A DNA stretch of 64,000 nucleotides from Gemmatimonadota bacterium (GTDB lineage Bacteria > Gemmatimonadota > Gemmatimonadetes > Longimicrobiales > Gaopeijiaceae). Under the pieces are notes generated by a model, which was not told the origin of the DNA, made no database searches, and saw only the letters and a list, made by a program, of their open reading frames with translations. Positions 5,299 through 42,684 of the stretch are shown here, piece by piece. The stretch is taken from positions 1 to 64,000 of the forward strand of contig JAJDXM010000065.1 in assembly GCA_022823225.1 (NCBI GenBank), read 5' to 3'. The translations under genes and the position numbers were made by a program. Positions within the stretch are counted from its first letter, which is position 1; every line of letters begins with the position of its first letter.

Positions 5299-6572
5299 TC
5301 CACCCGCTCGATCCCGGCTCCGAGCGCCGACAGCCGCTCGTCAATCCTCTCGTAGCCGCGTTCGATCTGTGTCGCGTTGCGAATCCGGCTCTCGCCCCGG
5401 GCCCCGAGCGCGGCGATGAGAATGGCCATTCCCGCCCGGATGTCGGGGCTCTCCACCGTGGCTCCATGCAGCGGCGAAGGCCCGACGACAACGACACGGT
5501 GAGGGTCGCAGAGGATGATTCGGGCTCCCATGGAAACCAGTTTGTCGGTAAAGAACATCCGGGATTCGAACATCTTCTCGTGCACGAGTACGGTCCCGCG
5601 CGCCTGGGTCGCGGTGACCACGGCGATCGAGGTCAGATCCGCGGGGAAGGCGGGCCAGGGGCCGTCATCGACCTTGGGGAGATGCCCGAACGCATCCATC
5701 TGCACCTCGGGCTCCTGGCGTCCGTCCACGATCAGGTTGCGGCCGTCGACCCGGCAGTCGACCCCGAGGCGGCGGAAACCGATCAATATCGAGTCGAGGT
5801 GTTCGACCGGCGCGTCCTCGATGACCAGAACGCTTCGGGTCAGGATCGCCAGGCCGATGAAGGAACCGGTCTCGATGTGGTCGGCGCCGATTTCGAAGTC
5901 GGCCCCTCCCAGCGTGGCGACCCCCTCGACCGAGATGTTCGGGGTGCCGATTCCCCCGATCCGGGCACCCATCGCATTGAGGAGGTGGCACAGATCCTGC
6001 ACATGGGGTTCGCAGGCCGCGTTTCTGATGAGGCTTTCGCCCCGGGCGAGCGCGGCCGCCATTACGGCGTTCTCGGTTGCGGTGACGGACGGCTCGTCCA
6101 GGAACAGGTTCGCGCCGGTCAGCGCGGGAGCGTCGATCTCCAGGCCGTGCGACATGCCCACCCTGGCGCCCAGGGCCTGGAAGGCGAGAACGTGCGAGTC
6201 CAGGCGGCGGCGTCCGATCACGTCTCCGCCGGGAGGCGGAAGCGACAGCGAACCGAAGCGCGCCAGCAGGGGTCCCGCCAGGAGAATCGACGCTCGGATC
6301 CTCTCCGAAAGCGCCGGATCCAGTTCGCCCGGATTGACGTTCCCGGCGTCGACCACAACGGTCCCGGGAGCCGTCCACGTAGCCGTCGCGCCCAGCGATT
6401 CCATGATCTCCAGCAGGGTGTGCACATCCCGGATGCGCGGCACGTTGCGCAGCGTGACCGGCTCGGTCGACATGAGGGTTGCTGCAAGGGTGGGAAGTGC
6501 CGCGTTCTTGTTGCCCGCGGGACGGACCCTTCCGGAAAGCTCGCGGCCGCCGGTCACGAGGAATGTTGGCAT
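5295..6572 (-). CDS. murA: UDP-N-acetylglucosamine 1-carboxyvinyltransferase MurA
   Basis: A 425-residue cytoplasmic enzyme that transfers enolpyruvate from PEP to UDP-GlcNAc, the first committed step of peptidoglycan synthesis. It shows the two-fold inside-out alpha/beta barrel pattern and the conserved AGNKNAALP near residue 20 (K22/N23 equivalents). In the catalytic loop, the residue aligning with Cys115 of E. coli is Asp117 (PPPGGDVIGRRRLDSH, codon 6222-6224). The same Cys-to-Asp change is known in fosfomycin-insensitive MurA enzymes. No Shine-Dalgarno precedes ATG 6572; TAACTT lies five bases upstream, which suggests a leaderless start. It is followed by tandem terminators and then rimP. 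Confidence 0.95.
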   Translation of the reverse strand: MPTFLVTGGRELSGRVRPAGNKNAALPTLAATLMSTEPVTLRNVPRIRDVHTLLEIMESLGATATWTAPGTVVVDAGNVNPGELDPALSERIRASILLAGPLLARFGSLSLPPPGGDVIGRRRLDSHVLAFQALGARVGMSHGLEIDAPALTGANLFLDEPSVTATENAVMAAALARGESLIRNAACEPHVQDLCHLLNAMGARIGGIGTPNISVEGVATLGGADFEIGADHIETGSFIGLAILTRSVLVIEDAPVEHLDSILIGFRRLGVDCRVDGRNLIVDGRQEPEVQMDAFGHLPKVDDGPWPAFPADLTSIAVVTATQARGTVLVHEKMFESRMFFTDKLVSMGARIILCDPHRVVVVGPSPLHGATVESPDIRAGMAILIAALGARGESRIRNATQIERGYERIDERLSALGAGIERVD

Positions 6573-12314: not shown

Positions 12315-12926
12315 CTAGCCCGGCGGCACGAGGTCCCTGCTGTTGCAGGCCCGGCTCATGTCGTACCGAAAGACCACCCACCCCGAGGGGATGTTGATGG
12401 CGAGGGGTTCGATCTTGCCGTAGTAGCTGCACTGCGTACCGAACAGGCCCGAGTGTCCGCGCGTGCGAATGACGTACACCGTGCGCGTTCTCATCGGCAC
12501 CGGTTCCTCGCGCGAGTAGCGGGTCGTATCGCCGGGCGCCCGGGTGGCCGACTCCCAATCCTCGTCCTCGAGAGTCGCCAGGGCGGAGCTGGACGTGATT
12601 CCGAGCGCTCCGGGCGGGAGCCACACGAACTCTCCATCGAGCGTGTCGACGGCCAGGTCCCAGTTGCTGCCGGTAAGGGACGATTCGATCTGAACCGGCG
12701 TGCGCGGATGGAAATCGTAGCCGGAAACCAGGTTGGGCTCGGCGCGGGAGAGCGCATGGAGACGCACGGTATCGGGGTCCGAAACCCAACGGACCGCGAA
12801 CGGGTCGTCATCGCACCCCAGCACGGACGACAGAATGAATGCCAGGGCGGGGAGGCACACCGGAAACAGCCGGCGGCCCACGGATTCCGAATCCTTCCTC
12901 ACCGCGGCAGAAGAGTGGCTTCTCAT
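12315..12926 (-). CDS. Putative lipoprotein of unknown function
   Basis: A 203-residue protein with a basic N-terminus, a hydrophobic stretch and a lipobox (LSSVLGC, Cys at about 38), so it is probably exported and lipid-anchored. The mature part is rich in Asp, Thr, Ser and Trp, without a motif I recognise; two further Cys (CSYYG and RACNS, near the C-terminus) could form a disulphide. It is a single gene, divergent from manC. A TTGACG-18-TAGAAT promoter ends only six bases before the ATG, with no Shine-Dalgarno at the usual distance, so the mRNA is probably leaderless. Confidence 0.75.
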   Translation of the reverse strand: MRSHSSAAVRKDSESVGRRLFPVCLPALAFILSSVLGCDDDPFAVRWVSDPDTVRLHALSRAEPNLVSGYDFHPRTPVQIESSLTGSNWDLAVDTLDGEFVWLPPGALGITSSSALATLEDEDWESATRAPGDTTRYSREEPVPMRTRTVYVIRTRGHSGLFGTQCSYYGKIEPLAINIPSGWVVFRYDMSRACNSRDLVPPG

Positions 12927-36150: not shown

Positions 36151-39100
36151 TCAAAGCGCCGTGCCGGCTTCCGCGTCCCGCACGGCGCGCAGACGAATCC
36201 GCACCCGCGTCCCCGTGCCGGTCTCGCTTTCGACCTCCACGGTTCCGCCCCACGAATCCACCAGCCGCTTCACGATCGCGAGCCCCAGCCCGGTGCCGGT
36301 CGACCTGGTGGAGAACTTCGGCTCGAAGATCCTGTCCAGAAGAGCCTCCGGGATACCGACGCCCTCGTCTTCGACGGTGATGATCTGCGCTCCGGGATCA
36401 TCTTCCGCATCCGCCGCCACGATCTGCACGGTCCCGCCTCCCGGCATCGCGTCACGCGCGTTCTCCACCAGATTGAGCAGGACCTCCTTGAGTTCGTCCG
36501 CCCTGCAGGCAACCGGAGCCAGCGTCGCAGCGAGGTCGCCCCTCACCTGCACGGACGCGGTTCCACCACCTCTGTACAGGTCCAGCACTTCCCGAATCAC
36601 TTCGGCTGCCGCCACAGCGACGAGGGGTCCCTTGTCCGCCGCGCCCGGAGAGGCCAATCGGGAAAAGCTCCGCGCGATGGAAGCGAGCCGGTCGATCTCG
36701 CCCAGAATCGCGCCCGCATTCCGGTTGAGAATGCCGGCGAAGTCCCGCCGCTGGTCCTCCCATGCCCGGATCAGGTGCTGAACCGACAGCTTCATGGGCG
36801 TCAGGGGATTCTTGACCTCGTGGGCGACCTGCTTGGCCATCTCCCCCCAGGCGAGGATCCGCTCGCTGCGGAGCTCGTCGGTCACGTCCTCCAGGTTCAC
36901 CACCACCCCCCCCGGCTGCCCTTCCTGCACGATTCGCCGGGCCCTGGCACGGATTCGGCGGTCGGCCCAGCGGAAATCGCCGTCGGCCTCGGCACGCGGA
37001 TCGCGGCCGTAGGCATCCAGCCACTCCGCGAGTTCGGCCGCCCGCGACCCCGTCCTGGGGATCCGGGCGCCGTTTTCCAGCGGTGTCGCGAGGAGGCTTT
37101 CGGCTCGCGGATTCGCGACGGTCACCCGCCCCTGCGTGTCCACCGCAATGACTCCCGTCGCCACCTCTTCCACGATCGTCTGAGTGCGGCGGGTCGTGCG
37201 CAGCAACTCCTTGCGGGCATCGCCGAGGCGTCGCACCATCCGGTTGAACGCAGCGAAAACGGATCCGAACTCGTCGACCCGGTGACCCGGAAGGTGCAGG
37301 TCCAGGTTTCCTCGCCCCACACCCTCGGACGCGGACTGCAGGATCTGGATGGGCCTGGTCAGCGCCCGGCCGACGAACAGGGCCAGTCCCAGCGAGAGTA
37401 TCGGGCCCAGCACGACGGCCGCACCGAGAAGGTCGGCCACGTCGCGACGGCGGAGCGCGGCGGCACCCGCGCGCAGCGGCACCGGGGAGGCTACGATGTC
37501 GCCGTCCGGAAGGCGCCGGTGGGCCAATACGTATTGCCAGTCCCCGAGACTTGTCACCTTGGAAACCCCGGCGCGCCTGCCGCTCTCGAGCGTTGCGTGG
37601 ATGCCGGGGTCCAGCCAGCCCTCATACACACCCAGTTCGACCAGTTCGTCCACCGAGCCTCCCACCAGCTCACCACCCCGGTATTCCAGGAGATCGGCAC
37701 CCACGCGCCTGGCCAGCGACTCCATCGAGCCGCCCTCCTCCCGGTACGACTGCGCGATCTGATCCACCACGCGCTCGGCCAGAGCGGTGGCAGTGCGTTC
37801 CGAGGCCCCGGTGAGAGTGCGGTATGCCAGCGTGCCGAAAACGACGTTGGACAGGATGAAAAAGCCGAACAGGGTCCACGTCACGCGCGCCCGAAACGAT
37901 GTGAACAGCCCCCGCCAATCGACAGGCACGGACAGGCGAAAGCCCACGAGTGCCATGCTGAGCAGCCAGATCGTGGAGAAGACGACGAGGCTGAGCACCA
38001 GTAACAGGGTCGCCCGGGCACACATCACCGGGAGGTTCGCAATGCTGATCGTAAGTGCTGCCGTGTAGGGACCATCGGGGTAGTAGGCCACCGTCTCGCC
38101 CCCCCATCCCTCGTCGTTGCGGCTCCAGTACACGCCCTCCGCTTCCAGTTCGACACCGTCTTCCGGGAGGCGGGCCAGCGTCAGGAATTCCTGGTCGCCA
38201 CCCTGCATCGCCGCGAACAGCGGTCCCATTGTCGATACCGACGTGACTGAACGGCGGGGAGAGATCGCACCGGTGACGATTCGTCCGTCCGTAAGCGTCA
38301 CGGTGACCAGTCGCTGGAGATCCGGCTCGGCCAGCGCGTGGAACTCGACCGCGCCCGCGGGCTCCGAGGCGGGCAGCAGCGCCTCGACCATGGACGGACG
38401 GGTTCCGCTCGCCAGCAGCCGGAGTTCGTTCTGCGGGACACCGGCGCGGGACCACAGCGTCACGAAGATCGGAGAACCGTGCTCGGCGAGTCCGCTGGAC
38501 ACCCACGCCCGGTACATCATCTCCACGTCGCCGGCCTCCGCCACATCGAGAGAATCGATTCGGTCCGCGAATTCGGCCAGCAGCGAATCCACCGCCGGAT
38601 CCGGCACGGCTCCCAGTCGGCGCAATTCCCGTTCTGCGATCTCCATGCGGGCTTCGGTCCGCATCGACCAGGTGAAGGGCAGCGCGGCGGTCACCGCCAG
38701 CCAGAATGCGCAGAACCAGCGCAGGTAGGATTCGTGGGCCGAAACGTCCATGCCCCGGACGACCAGCACGGCCGGGAGCGCCCACAGCAGGGCCAGGGCC
38801 GGGGGCACGTGGGGGCCGGTGCGGACTCCCGCCGCGACCGCAGCGCTGAGTCCGGCGGCGACCAGCAGGCCGAGCACCATCAGCCCCGGGGCGTCGACCG
38901 TGCTTGTCCGCCCGCGGAGGGCAAGTGCGGCACCGCCGACAAGCGTCAGCACCGTGGTCACCGTCAACTGAAAGAATACCCAGCGCGTGTTGGTCGTCCC
39001 CAGCATGTCGAGCGGTGCACCGCCACCCATCCAGGCGAGCGCCAGGGGAAAACCGACCCCGACGAGCACCGGCAGCGCCCAGTGACCCTGCGCCAGATGC

Positions 39101-40251
39101 CGCCGGGGGATCACGTGAATCACCAGGGGCGTAGCCGCGATGCAGAACAGCAGAATCCGTCCCAGGGCAATCCGCGGCGGCCCCTCGAGTTCGGCATTGA
39201 TCAGCGCTGCGAAGTCGGCTGGCCAGAAGGTGCTGTCGATCGGCAGAACGACCGCCGCGACCGCCAGACCCGCGACTGAGTAGCCCGCCCTGCTCCGGGA
39301 CGCGCCAATCGATTGCAGCAGCCACGTGAGGACCGCCAGCAGAACCACGATTCCGGCGCCGGCGTCCCGCTGCCGGGCGCGCCAGGTGGCGGGGTCCGGT
39401 TCCTCGACGGTGATGCTGAGCAGGGCTTCGTCCAGCCAGCCGAGATCGACGACCCCCGGGGCACTTGCCCGGTCCGAGCGGGTGATGCGGATCCGTTCAC
39501 CCGTGACGCGCGCGGAATGGGACGCGAAGTCGTCGATTCCCGCTGCGAGGGGCGCGGGAAGATCGGAGTGCATCAGTGAAGTGACCACGGCCGTGCCGCG
39601 GCCATCGCGTGTCTGCCGCGCAAAGTGCAGGTAGGAAAAGAGCGTCGTGCCCGCATAGGAGTATCGCGTGTCCCCGCGGCGCACATCGTCGGGAATGCGC
39701 CCGTGGTGGCTCCCTTCCCACGCGACGAGCCTACCGTCCCGGTCGAACAGCGCCGCCGCGGTCACCCCGAACCCGCTGACCACCGATCGCAGCGAGTCGC
39801 GCAGCGCCACATCGTCCAGCCCAAGGGCGGCGAGCCTGTCCACGGCATCGTCTCCCGACGTTGCCAGGGCGTCGAACTCGTCGGTCACGCGCTGCCCGAC
39901 AGTCTCACGGCGGTGCTCCCAGTATCCGGGCCAGTCGAGGGCCAGGCCCCGGTCCCGCAATTCGGCATGGAATCCGGTGATCACCCCGGCGGCAACCAGC
40001 ACGATGGAGACTCCCCGCCTCCAGCCGCCACTGCCCCCAACCGCCGCCCAGAAGACGAAGATCGCCGCCATCCCCAGCGCCCAGGGGGCTTCGACCCTTG
40101 TCCAGAGCAACAGCAGAAAAAGACCGGCCCAGATCATCGGACCGGAGGTGCGTACCCGGCCAGGACCGGCGTCCGCAGCCGCTTCCGAATCCGTCAGGGA
40201 TCCGAAATCTCGCGCCGCGGTCCGGTCGCCCTGCACGGAATCACTGGTCAT
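36151..40251 (-). CDS. Giant NtrY-like multi-domain sensor histidine kinase
   Basis: A 1366-residue membrane kinase, about twice the usual NtrY length (700-800). Order: two helices near 40-90, a soluble sensor region to about 300, a cluster of about eight helices (about 310-550), a second soluble region (about 560-750), further helices near 770-860, a third extracytoplasmic region, a HAMP domain (about 950-1010), a PAS domain (VEEVATGVIAVDTQGRVTVANPRA), a phosphoacceptor helix with AHEVKNPLTPMKLSVQ (His near 1144) and a complete HATPase domain (NLVENARDAM, EDEGVGIP, TGTGLGLAIVKRLV). HEVKNPLTPMKLSVQ is a hallmark of NtrY-type kinases. No response regulator is adjacent. ATG 40251 lies five bases after TAACAT; Met at 40137 is a later alternative. 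Confidence 0.85.
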   Translation of the reverse strand: MTSDSVQGDRTAARDFGSLTDSEAAADAGPGRVRTSGPMIWAGLFLLLLWTRVEAPWALGMAAIFVFWAAVGGSGGWRRGVSIVLVAAGVITGFHAELRDRGLALDWPGYWEHRRETVGQRVTDEFDALATSGDDAVDRLAALGLDDVALRDSLRSVVSGFGVTAAALFDRDGRLVAWEGSHHGRIPDDVRRGDTRYSYAGTTLFSYLHFARQTRDGRGTAVVTSLMHSDLPAPLAAGIDDFASHSARVTGERIRITRSDRASAPGVVDLGWLDEALLSITVEEPDPATWRARQRDAGAGIVVLLAVLTWLLQSIGASRSRAGYSVAGLAVAAVVLPIDSTFWPADFAALINAELEGPPRIALGRILLFCIAATPLVIHVIPRRHLAQGHWALPVLVGVGFPLALAWMGGGAPLDMLGTTNTRWVFFQLTVTTVLTLVGGAALALRGRTSTVDAPGLMVLGLLVAAGLSAAVAAGVRTGPHVPPALALLWALPAVLVVRGMDVSAHESYLRWFCAFWLAVTAALPFTWSMRTEARMEIAERELRRLGAVPDPAVDSLLAEFADRIDSLDVAEAGDVEMMYRAWVSSGLAEHGSPIFVTLWSRAGVPQNELRLLASGTRPSMVEALLPASEPAGAVEFHALAEPDLQRLVTVTLTDGRIVTGAISPRRSVTSVSTMGPLFAAMQGGDQEFLTLARLPEDGVELEAEGVYWSRNDEGWGGETVAYYPDGPYTAALTISIANLPVMCARATLLLVLSLVVFSTIWLLSMALVGFRLSVPVDWRGLFTSFRARVTWTLFGFFILSNVVFGTLAYRTLTGASERTATALAERVVDQIAQSYREEGGSMESLARRVGADLLEYRGGELVGGSVDELVELGVYEGWLDPGIHATLESGRRAGVSKVTSLGDWQYVLAHRRLPDGDIVASPVPLRAGAAALRRRDVADLLGAAVVLGPILSLGLALFVGRALTRPIQILQSASEGVGRGNLDLHLPGHRVDEFGSVFAAFNRMVRRLGDARKELLRTTRRTQTIVEEVATGVIAVDTQGRVTVANPRAESLLATPLENGARIPRTGSRAAELAEWLDAYGRDPRAEADGDFRWADRRIRARARRIVQEGQPGGVVVNLEDVTDELRSERILAWGEMAKQVAHEVKNPLTPMKLSVQHLIRAWEDQRRDFAGILNRNAGAILGEIDRLASIARSFSRLASPGAADKGPLVAVAAAEVIREVLDLYRGGGTASVQVRGDLAATLAPVACRADELKEVLLNLVENARDAMPGGGTVQIVAADAEDDPGAQIITVEDEGVGIPEALLDRIFEPKFSTRSTGTGLGLAIVKRLVDSWGGTVEVESETGTGTRVRIRLRAVRDAEAGTAL

Positions 40252-40255
40252 GATG

Positions 40256-40262
40256 TATGTTA
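40256..40262. promoter_or_regulatory. Overlapping divergent leaderless -10 boxes
   Basis: Plus-strand TATGTT (40256-40261) lies six bases before ATG 40268; minus-strand TAACAT (40262-40257) lies five bases before ATG 40251. The two hexamers share five base pairs inside an AT-rich island. No good -35 is seen for either. Confidence 0.45.
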
Positions 40263-40267
40263 CAGTA

Positions 40268-40996
40268 ATGGGATCACACATGTCTTGGTTGTCGGTCCGC
40301 CGCGGGTCGAGGCGACTCATGGGACCCCTCGCGGCAGCCTGTGCGTTGTTGGCCGCGGGGACGGCCGTGCCCGCGGCGGGTCAGCTGGTCGACAGGGGCA
40401 CGTTTCGGATTCTGGTTGAGGGAAGGGAGGTTGGGACGGAGGAATTCACCATTCGGCGGCGGGGCGCGGGGGATGCCCAGACCACCATCGCGCGCGGCCG
40501 GATCTCCATGCGGGACGGCCGTGTACTCGAAACGTCCCTCCTGATGGTCGGATCGGAACCGGTTCTGGTCGAGTATGCGGCCAACCGGACCGGGGCCGAC
40601 CCGGCGACGGTGGAGCTTGCGAGAACGGGGGACCACTTCCGCGCGCGGACCGTGGACCAATGGGGCGAAAGGATGCGGTCCTACCGGGCCCGTTCGGCCA
40701 CTTTCGTGCTGGACGAAGGAGTCGCACACCACTACTTCGTGCTCGGAGGGTTCATCGCCGACGATTCGCTCCCGCGAACCCTTCACGCCTACAGCAGAGG
40801 CGCCGAGGATCTGGAACCGATCGAGGTGCTGGGAGCCGCGCAGGAGAACATCGAGCTCGGAGGCGAGCAGGTGGATGTCACGCGTGTCGGCTTCAGCTCG
40901 GGCGTCGGGACCGGGGCCGCCTGGTTCGACGGAAGCAGACGACTTGTGCGGGTCGCGCTTCCGGGTGGCGCCGTCGTCGCCGAAATCGTGCGCTGA
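40268..40996 (+). CDS. Secreted protein of unknown function (DUF6134-like)
   Basis: A 242-residue protein with an N-terminal signal peptide (LMGPLAAACALLAAGTAVPAAG, cleavage after about residue 38). The mature part is beta-rich and starts with GTFRILVEGREVGTEEFTIRR, a pattern shared by proteins called DUF6134/DUF3108-like in related bacteria; the function is unknown. ATG 40268 is chosen for its TATGTT spacing; ATG 40280 with GGGAT upstream gives a protein four residues shorter. It is divergent from the giant kinase by 16 bases and upstream of the export operon. Confidence 0.7.
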   Translation: MGSHMSWLSVRRGSRRLMGPLAAACALLAAGTAVPAAGQLVDRGTFRILVEGREVGTEEFTIRRRGAGDAQTTIARGRISMRDGRVLETSLLMVGSEPVLVEYAANRTGADPATVELARTGDHFRARTVDQWGERMRSYRARSATFVLDEGVAHHYFVLGGFIADDSLPRTLHAYSRGAEDLEPIEVLGAAQENIELGGEQVDVTRVGFSSGVGTGAAWFDGSRRLVRVALPGGAVVAEIVR

Positions 40997-41163
40997 CGAC
41001 CGTAATCGAAGAGAACGGCACCCTGCACCGTAGGAGAAACCGGCCCGCGCTCGACCGCGTAGGGTAGTCCGGCTCTCAACGCGGCAGGCGGCGTGAGGGG
41101 TCGTTATTGGAGGAGGACGAGAACCCGGTGTGAAGCCGGATCAAGCGGGAGTCTTTGATCAAC

Positions 41164-42684
41164 ATGAAAACCATTGGAGTCCACACCACGAGGCGGGCCA
41201 CGGCCGTCCTGTGTCTGCTCGCAGCGCTGCCGGCGCTCGCGTCGGCGCAGGTGCGGGTGCCCCAGTCCCTTTCGCTCGACGAGGCGCTGGAGATCGCGCT
41301 CGACAACAACCCCGCCATGCAGGCGACGCGGAACGACGTGAACGTCGCGAACTGGAATCTGACCGCCGCCTACGGGTCGTGGATGCCAACGGCGTCGCTG
41401 AACTCGGGCGTCAGCTGGCAGGGAGTGGGCGAACAGCGTTTCGGGAGCATCACCGCCGAGCAACTGGGCTTCCTGGACCAGCCCTCGTTCCTGTCGAGTT
41501 CCTACAGCGCCACCGCGAGCTTTTCGATCAACGGCCGCATGCTCATGGCGCCGGGGCAGGCATCGCGCAACCGCGACGCCACGCGGGCGCAGGTCCGTAC
41601 GCAGGAGGCGACGCTGCGCCTCAACGTGACCCGCGCCTATCTGGACGTTCTGCGCCAGACCGAGGGCCTGCGTCTCGCCGAACAGCAGCTCGACCGGGCG
41701 CAGTTCAACCTGCGCCTGGCCCAGGGTCGCCGGGAGGTGCTGGGATCCGGGACGTCGATCGACGTACAGCAGGCCGAGGTCAACGTCGGCCGCGCCGAAG
41801 TCACGCTGCTTCAGTCGCAGACTGGACTCCGCACCTCGCGCATTCGCCTGCTCCAGCAGATGGGTGCCGACCTTTCGGCCGAACCCGACCTGGCGACGAC
41901 CTTTGCGGTAACCGAACCGACGTGGACCGCCGATGGCCTCTACAGCATGGCGATGGACCGCAATCCGGGCCTGCAAGCGCTCAGGGCCCAGGAGAGGTCC
42001 GCGAACTACGGCGTGAACATGGCGCGCTCGTCGTACTTTCCCAGCGTGAGCATGTCCGCGGGCGTCAGCGGGTTCACCCGCCAGGCGAGCAGCACCGCGG
42101 CACAGGAGGCGCAGGCCATCGCAGCGGGCGTGGGCCGGGTCCAGCAGTGTCTGGCAACGAACGAGCTGCTCTCGGCGCTCCCCTCGCCACCGCCCCCGCA
42201 GAATTGCTCGCTTCTGGCAACACCGCAATCGGCACTCATCGCGATCAGGGAACAGAACCGGGCATTCCCCTTTGACTTCACCAACTCGCCCCCCTCCGCC
42301 GGCCTGTCGGTCTCGATCCCGATCTTCCAGGGCCTGAGCCGGCAACGCGAGGTGGAGAGCGCGCGCGCCCAGCTCCTCGACACGAGGTACCGGGTCAGCG
42401 AGCAGCGGCTCGCGCTGCGCGCCGACATCGAAGCGCAGACCGCAACGGTGCGCACCGCATACGAAACCGCGCTCATCGAGGAGCGCAACCAGGCGCTGGT
42501 TGACGAACAGCTGCGGCTGGCACAGGAGCGCTACCGCAACGGCCTCTCCAACTTCATCGACCTGGTCGAGGCCGAGACGCTCAAGGCGCAGGCGGACCGC
42601 GAGAGAATCGTCGCGATTTTCACCTATCATGATGCGATTGCCGACCTTGAAGCGGTGGTCGGCACCCCATTGAGGAACCCATAG
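41164..42684 (+). CDS. TolC-family outer membrane efflux protein
   Basis: A 506-residue protein with a signal peptide (to about 27, ALASA-Q) and two OEP repeats of long helices separated by beta strands; LSLDEALEIALDNNPAM begins repeat 1, and YRNGLSNFIDLVEAETLKAQ is the typical end of repeat 2. It forms the outer-membrane channel of a tripartite exporter. ATG 41164 is chosen; TTG 41155 is possible. It is four bases from the adaptor gene, so they are co-transcribed. The 150-base gap upstream holds no firm promoter. Confidence 0.92.
   Translation: MKTIGVHTTRRATAVLCLLAALPALASAQVRVPQSLSLDEALEIALDNNPAMQATRNDVNVANWNLTAAYGSWMPTASLNSGVSWQGVGEQRFGSITAEQLGFLDQPSFLSSSYSATASFSINGRMLMAPGQASRNRDATRAQVRTQEATLRLNVTRAYLDVLRQTEGLRLAEQQLDRAQFNLRLAQGRREVLGSGTSIDVQQAEVNVGRAEVTLLQSQTGLRTSRIRLLQQMGADLSAEPDLATTFAVTEPTWTADGLYSMAMDRNPGLQALRAQERSANYGVNMARSSYFPSVSMSAGVSGFTRQASSTAAQEAQAIAAGVGRVQQCLATNELLSALPSPPPPQNCSLLATPQSALIAIREQNRAFPFDFTNSPPSAGLSVSIPIFQGLSRQREVESARAQLLDTRYRVSEQRLALRADIEAQTATVRTAYETALIEERNQALVDEQLRLAQERYRNGLSNFIDLVEAETLKAQADRERIVAIFTYHDAIADLEAVVGTPLRNP

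Follow-up and report, generated by a model that had tools for sequence, protein, structure and literature searches.

A putative doubly leaderless bidirectional promoter in the 22 bp joining divergent sensor kinase and exported-protein genes of a Gemmatimonadota bacterium

Two divergent genes of a Gemmatimonadota bacterium, encoding a probable sensor histidine kinase and a putatively exported protein, meet head to head across 16 bp that hold overlapping candidate -10 hexamers of opposite direction. We propose, with a probability of roughly 0.78, that these 16 bp and the two flanking start codons, 22 bases in all, form a doubly leaderless, bidirectional promoter that uses -10 elements only. The window analyzed here, a stretch of 64,000 nucleotides, is a portion of contig C49 of a draft genome (G000; 4.19 Mb, 97 contigs). 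The elements, their spacings, their conservation and their recurrence can be read directly from the letters of the genomes compared; what appears to be new is the fusion of bidirectional and leaderless initiation in a conserved 22-bp unit, along with a back-to-back variant in relatives and recurrence of the arrangement elsewhere.

The junction (CATGATGTATGTTACAGTAATG, window 40249-40270) consists of the kinase start codon (40249-40251, minus strand; CAT on the plus strand), a 16-bp spacer that would be the core of the putative bidirectional promoter (GATGTATGTTACAGTA, 40252-40267), and the ATG of the exported protein (40268-40270, plus strand), for which homologs have an in-frame ATG at the equivalent junction. 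The two start codons lie 17 bp apart. TATGTT (40256-40261, plus strand), the predicted -10 element of the exported gene, is 6 nt ahead of its ATG, and TAACAT (40257-40262, minus strand), the predicted -10 element of the kinase gene, is 5 nt ahead of its own; a second candidate minus-strand -10, TACTGT (40262-40267), abuts the exported ATG and is 10 nt from the kinase ATG. TATGTT and TAACAT are reciprocal readings of one symmetric core, TATGTTA (40256-40262), so that the -7 and -11 base pairs are common to both. An earlier note on this DNA had described a kinase CAT, overlapping opposed -10 boxes and an ATG within 22 bases, and the sequence reads exactly so. Its description of an AT-rich island in GC-rich DNA is likewise borne out: the 22 bases are 68% AT, and two 50-nt windows over the junction have a GC content of 0.44-0.48, versus 0.54-0.82 in the remaining windows of 39500-40999. 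The note did not mention the leaderless spacing of both boxes, the conservation of their geometry or its presence at other loci.

A sigma-70 scan that included -35 elements identified no paired -35/-10 site in 39000-41500, and the junction is thus taken to be a -10-only site. When 16-nt spacers were drawn at random, both hexamers occurred at 5-7 nt in 0.15% of draws at the composition of the window and in 3.5% of draws at 68% AT; given these chance rates, the single sequence is suggestive, and it is conservation that carries the case.

In 21 of the 23 genomes of the genus, a single contig carries the kinase gene and the exported gene as divergent neighbors. In 22/23 genus loci, a plus-strand TANNNT lies 6-10 nt ahead of the exported ATG, and these 22 also have a minus-strand TANNNT directly adjoining that ATG; both hexamers are also kept in one genome of another genus (L075; G071), where a kinase-like frame likewise opens at the junction ATG. 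Conservation in relatives, which the earlier note had proposed as a check, is supported, with the qualification that these counts represent related genomes and not independent events. The 23 junctions comprise 14 distinct sequences, in all of which each hexamer has a fixed T, A and T and varies at the middle three positions. A TANNNT 6-10 nt before the exported ATG is missing in L019 (G009) and in L022, from another genus; G009 shows TATGATA, also reciprocal, further upstream (by eye).

In the usual junction of a relative (e.g. CATTATGTTTAACTTAATG), two hexamers stand back to back, both separated by 7 nt from a start codon, and the distance between the codons is about 14 bp. The genome analyzed here has a longer spacer, contains the reciprocal TATGTT/TAACAT pair and retains the abutting TACTGT, and the exact pattern of the relatives has 0 matches in it; by sequence comparison, its register is shifted relative to theirs. 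In one relative (G005), two contig ends bear the same junction. In another (G007), the kinase and exported genes are on different contigs (19,641 and 71,264 bases), reflecting either separation or an assembly break, and each gene has its own copy of the mirrored core (L021/L157 and L156). The G007 exported copy retains the minus-strand hexamer with no kinase alongside, so it does not have to be an element of the kinase gene; the kinase side, on its own contig, retains TACCTT followed by 7 nt and ATG.

Across the family, the pattern of the relatives was matched in 36/121 genomes (21/23 within the genus, 15/98 outside it). The reversed-pattern control itself gave 11 forward matches across the 23 genomes of the genus, so little weight can be placed on isolated matches elsewhere, and the signal lies in the genus matches at this locus. 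Nine of the 15 matching genomes outside the genus yielded a locus (L147-L155); kinase and exported gene are present only in G071, and among the other outside-genus loci read only L151 has long frames on both sides. What we take to be a YicC-like gene starts at the mirrored pattern in L151 (G095) and L152 (G096), from another genus of the family; the pattern in L151 is CATTACGATTGAAGGCTAATG. In three more distant loci (L027, L028, L029), a frame that by eye we presume to be amidohydrolase-like separates the exported gene from a weak kinase match, and head-to-head contact may thus be a derived state.

The kinase gene (36151-40251, minus strand) encodes a probable sensor histidine kinase of 1366 amino acids, with HAMP (43.5 bits; cutoff 25) and HATPase_c (95.9 bits; cutoff 26.4) domains above cutoff, HisKA just under it (24.5 bits; cutoff 26.9) and PAS below. 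It is matched in 23/23 genus genomes, the best match in each of the 22 others being near full length with 48-75% identity. The position of its start matters, as the earlier note had set a kinase start at 40137 against a shared promoter. Our codon-usage gene caller does see the score of the kinase rise only from 40137, but alignments with the kinases of L003, L004 and L005 begin at the first residue encoded from 40251. The N-terminal extension shows a weak codon-position bias (86, 101 and 117 substitutions at positions 1-3); beyond residue 39 the corresponding figures are 23, 7 and 39. From these comparisons, the start is likely at 40251, in which case the first T of TANNNT lies 11 nt (TAACAT) or 16 nt (TACTGT) before an ATG that is backed by close relatives only. 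Candidate kinase starts are found further downstream in several clades, some in L015-L018 behind a purine-rich, SD-like stretch, so that leaderless initiation would often be lacking on the kinase side; the minus-strand hexamer is nevertheless retained in these clades. A terminator-like hairpin (40145-40124, minus strand; tail TCTTTTTCTG) lies some 110 nt into the kinase gene and may have arisen by chance, since its T-run encodes a hydrophobic stretch.

The exported protein (242 amino acids; 40268-40996, plus strand) has a signal-like N-terminus (by eye), and in its predicted structure the first 35 residues are of low confidence, while the rest is confident and beta-rich. A fold search gave a single solved structure below E 0.001: 6NTR (DUF1849; E 9.3e-6, TM 0.51-0.52), which, in the part of the source available, is named EipB, a periplasmic spiral beta-barrel of Brucella (PMC10787603). 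This best fold match is similar in size and beta-rich; the two proteins differ in sequence (9% identity) and superpose with an rmsd of 6.5, and the link, drawn from a structural model, is one of fold resemblance only and not of family membership. Against Pfam DUF6134, the protein scores 20.2 bits, below the gathering score of 27.9. Named records of its family (25 loci) come from Gemmatimonadetes, Gemmatimonadota, Longimicrobiales or Longimicrobium.

Leaderless genes have a TANNNT about 12 bp before the start codon, the TAnnnT form being that of high-GC groups, as described in the accessible part of PMC3160421; the main text of that paper contains 0 occurrences of 'Gemmatimona'. The first T of TATGTT (40256) lies exactly 12 nt before the exported ATG (40268), as in such genes, and unlike the leaderless genes described there, two candidate genes of this type would share one core here. 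Using the codon-usage gene caller, we sampled 342 kb of this genome, with the window among them (269 genes), and 400 kb of a relative (G001; 298 genes). In both samples TANNNT-to-ATG spacings peak at 5-7 nt, with 13 observed vs. 3.4 expected in the former (Poisson P 6e-5; 11 without the two genes of this junction) and 12 observed vs. 2.6 expected in the latter (Poisson P 2e-5). Neither out-of-frame ATGs nor GTG starts show such a peak in the two samples. Leaderless-type genes (TANNNT at 5-8 nt) make up ∼5% of genes (14/269 and 12/298), and both junction -10s (TATGTT at 6 nt, TAACAT at 5 nt) fall inside the leaderless peak. Among the 24 other leaderless-type starts in the two samples, 0 have TA or ANNNTA directly before the ATG; leaderless promoters thus do not normally include the TA of TAATG. 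Only this pair among 72 sampled divergent pairs from the two genomes has both leaderless-type starts close together, from which it follows that the class of such junctions is small.

Recurrence at other loci was examined with a shared-core pattern (CATN{4,7}TANNNTAN{4,7}ATG), the controls being the reversed pattern and a scrambled core. The entire genome has 4 matches (5 with the reversed pattern), 3 of which lie exactly between two long divergent coding frames: the junction itself, C64:21043 and C89:31040. The scrambled core has 15 matches in the same genome, 0/15 of them between two coding frames (P 0.004; with the junction itself excluded, 2/3 vs. 0/15, P 0.02). For the genus, we considered 73 of 115 forward matches, most of those in G015 being left out as many are one repeated palindrome, and a small control set of 37 of 275 scrambled-core matches; 10/73 vs. 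0/37 lie between divergent coding frames (P 0.013). Five of these 10 are one locus in five genomes, and after collapsing them the comparison is 6/69 vs. 0/37 (P 0.07). The remaining matches among the 73 have a coding frame on one side (30) or on none (33). The G015 palindrome (CATTACATAGTGTAATG) occurs on several contigs, like a dispersed repeat.

The C64 junction (L163, G000:C64:21043-21065; CATTCTGTTAACTTACCCCCATG) has spacings of 6 nt on both sides, with codons 18 bp apart, and reads TTAACTTACCCCC-ATG. It separates what we assume, from the look of the sequences, to be an ATPase-like gene and an ETF-quinone-oxidoreductase (ETF-QO)-like gene. The plus-strand protein is matched in 19/23 genus genomes (relatives L271-L289), and the other gene is divergent in 20/20 loci read from these 19 genomes (G012 contributing two). 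The symmetric core is present at 17/20 loci, as TAACTTA followed by a start codon in 16 and as TAAGTTA in L285, and was not found in L279, L280 and L290; in 10/20, the minus strand too has an ATG or GTG next to the core, within 3-6 nt. At the C89 junction (L164, G000:C89:31040-31060) both spacings are 5 nt, and the adjoining genes presumably encode an exported protein and a hydrolase-like protein.

The bidirectional promoters described by Warman, Grainger and colleagues have, in the portions of the two papers available, a near-symmetric -10 that is read from either strand, each -7T pairing with the -11A of the opposite element (PMC12825309, PMC10268837), and the same reciprocal -7T/-11A pairing is found in TATGTTA at 40256-40262. 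Their divergent starts are 7-25 bp apart, 18 bp being the commonest distance and 18, 10 and 23 bp the preferred ones (PMC12825309, PMC10268837); the codons of our junction (17 bp) and of the C64 locus (18 bp) resemble the 18-bp class (PMC10268837). In contrast to those promoters, both start codons here are located at the expected transcript start points, and the back-to-back -10s of most relatives, with their codon distance of about 14 bp, fall outside 18, 10 and 23 bp. By word count, 'leaderless' has 0 occurrences in PMC12825309 and PMC10268837. A parallel on the leaderless side is the divergent pair prpD/Rv1129c of Mycobacterium tuberculosis, in which both starts are at the start codons, by mapping there and by prediction here (PMC3898074); the figure-legend passage concerned gives neither the spacing nor a shared -10. 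Our search of the literature on leaderless and bidirectional or divergent transcription, for which sources were available in part and most subscription journals were outside the scope, found no such architecture.

We infer that both promoters are active, that transcription starts at the codons and that the main sigma factor is responsible. A housekeeping-type RNA polymerase would read the near-symmetric TATGTTA in either orientation, TATGTT driving the exported gene and TAACAT, or the abutting TACTGT, driving the kinase gene; both transcripts would begin at or ∼1 nt from an AUG, making both mRNAs leaderless. As the same bubble-sized stretch would be melted either way, one polymerase would start at a time, and competition would matter only under strong activation of one direction.

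An unlikely alternative is that the site is a leaderless promoter for the exported gene only, the kinase being transcribed from elsewhere and the minus-strand hexamers being a by-product of symmetric, AT-rich sequence. The symmetry of a -10 by itself yields opposite hexamers, the exported copy of G007 has a minus-strand hexamer away from any kinase, kinase start candidates lie further off in many clades and the codon score of the kinase in our genome rises only at 40137. However, the conserved minus-strand element is not a mirror of the plus hexamer: most relatives have it next to that hexamer, directly at the ATG; its T, A and T are kept over 14 distinct junctions, a TA at that place is seen in none of the 24 other leaderless-type starts, and the G007 kinase side retains its hexamer, spacing and ATG on its own. 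It is very improbable that the inverted repeat CATTA...TAATG is instead an operator for a dimeric regulator and not two promoters. The junction does form an inverted repeat in most relatives, but the arms are 9, 10, 12 or 14 nt apart depending on the clade (junctions compared by eye). A rigid dimer rarely tolerates varying arm spacing, and the dimer operator was set aside for this variation between clades; in addition, seven genus loci have CGTTA as their left arm and our genome has CATGA, and the far-end T of each TANNNT, which lies outside the arms, never varies.

The two-promoter reading leaves the question of how the genes would be co-regulated. The earlier note had argued that polymerase cannot occupy both directions and had therefore expected the two genes to be expressed in a mutually exclusive way. 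Steric exclusion does follow from the geometry of the overlap, and Warman 2026 states the same constraint (PMC12825309); from this one could derive a bistable switch, in which strong opposed promoters exclude each other and the cell makes either kinase or exported protein. We give this very little credence. In the part of that paper available, none of the five E. coli bidirectional promoters tested fires often enough at basal level for its two directions to compete (PMC12825309), leaving mutually exclusive expression unsupported, and the lack of a -35 in the interval scanned suggests modest promoter strength. Substantial activation of one direction does lower the other in E. coli, and MerR-type regulators by themselves blocked one promoter side (PMC12825309). 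By analogy with the lack of basal competition at the five E. coli promoters, the kinase and the exported protein should be co-expressed at a low level, with antagonism optional and not exclusive, and the junction is probably not an on/off switch between the two genes.

If correct, the proposed doubly leaderless bidirectional promoter would show how tightly a bacterial divergent promoter can be packed, with a pair of promoters, of likely start points and of start codons fitted into 22 bp. It would also extend leaderless and bidirectional initiation to the Gemmatimonadota, a phylum for which the literature searched contained no transcript start maps. More tentatively, and at odds short of even, the genus may have a small, evolutionarily stable class of such promoters that interlock the start codon, transcript start and -10 of two genes within ∼22 bp, so that neither gene's set can shift alone; this class would link a sensor kinase with an envelope barrel protein, and an ETF-quinone-oxidoreductase-like gene with an ATPase, the initiation of each pair being coupled by polymerase competition when one side is activated. 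Kept in most of the genus and recurring, such junctions offer natural, conserved objects on which coupling by bidirectional initiation could be tested.

Further leaderless-type starts occur within the window, at 6572 (minus strand; GTAACTTCCTTC-ATG) and at 12926 (minus strand; TAGAATTCGTCC-ATG).
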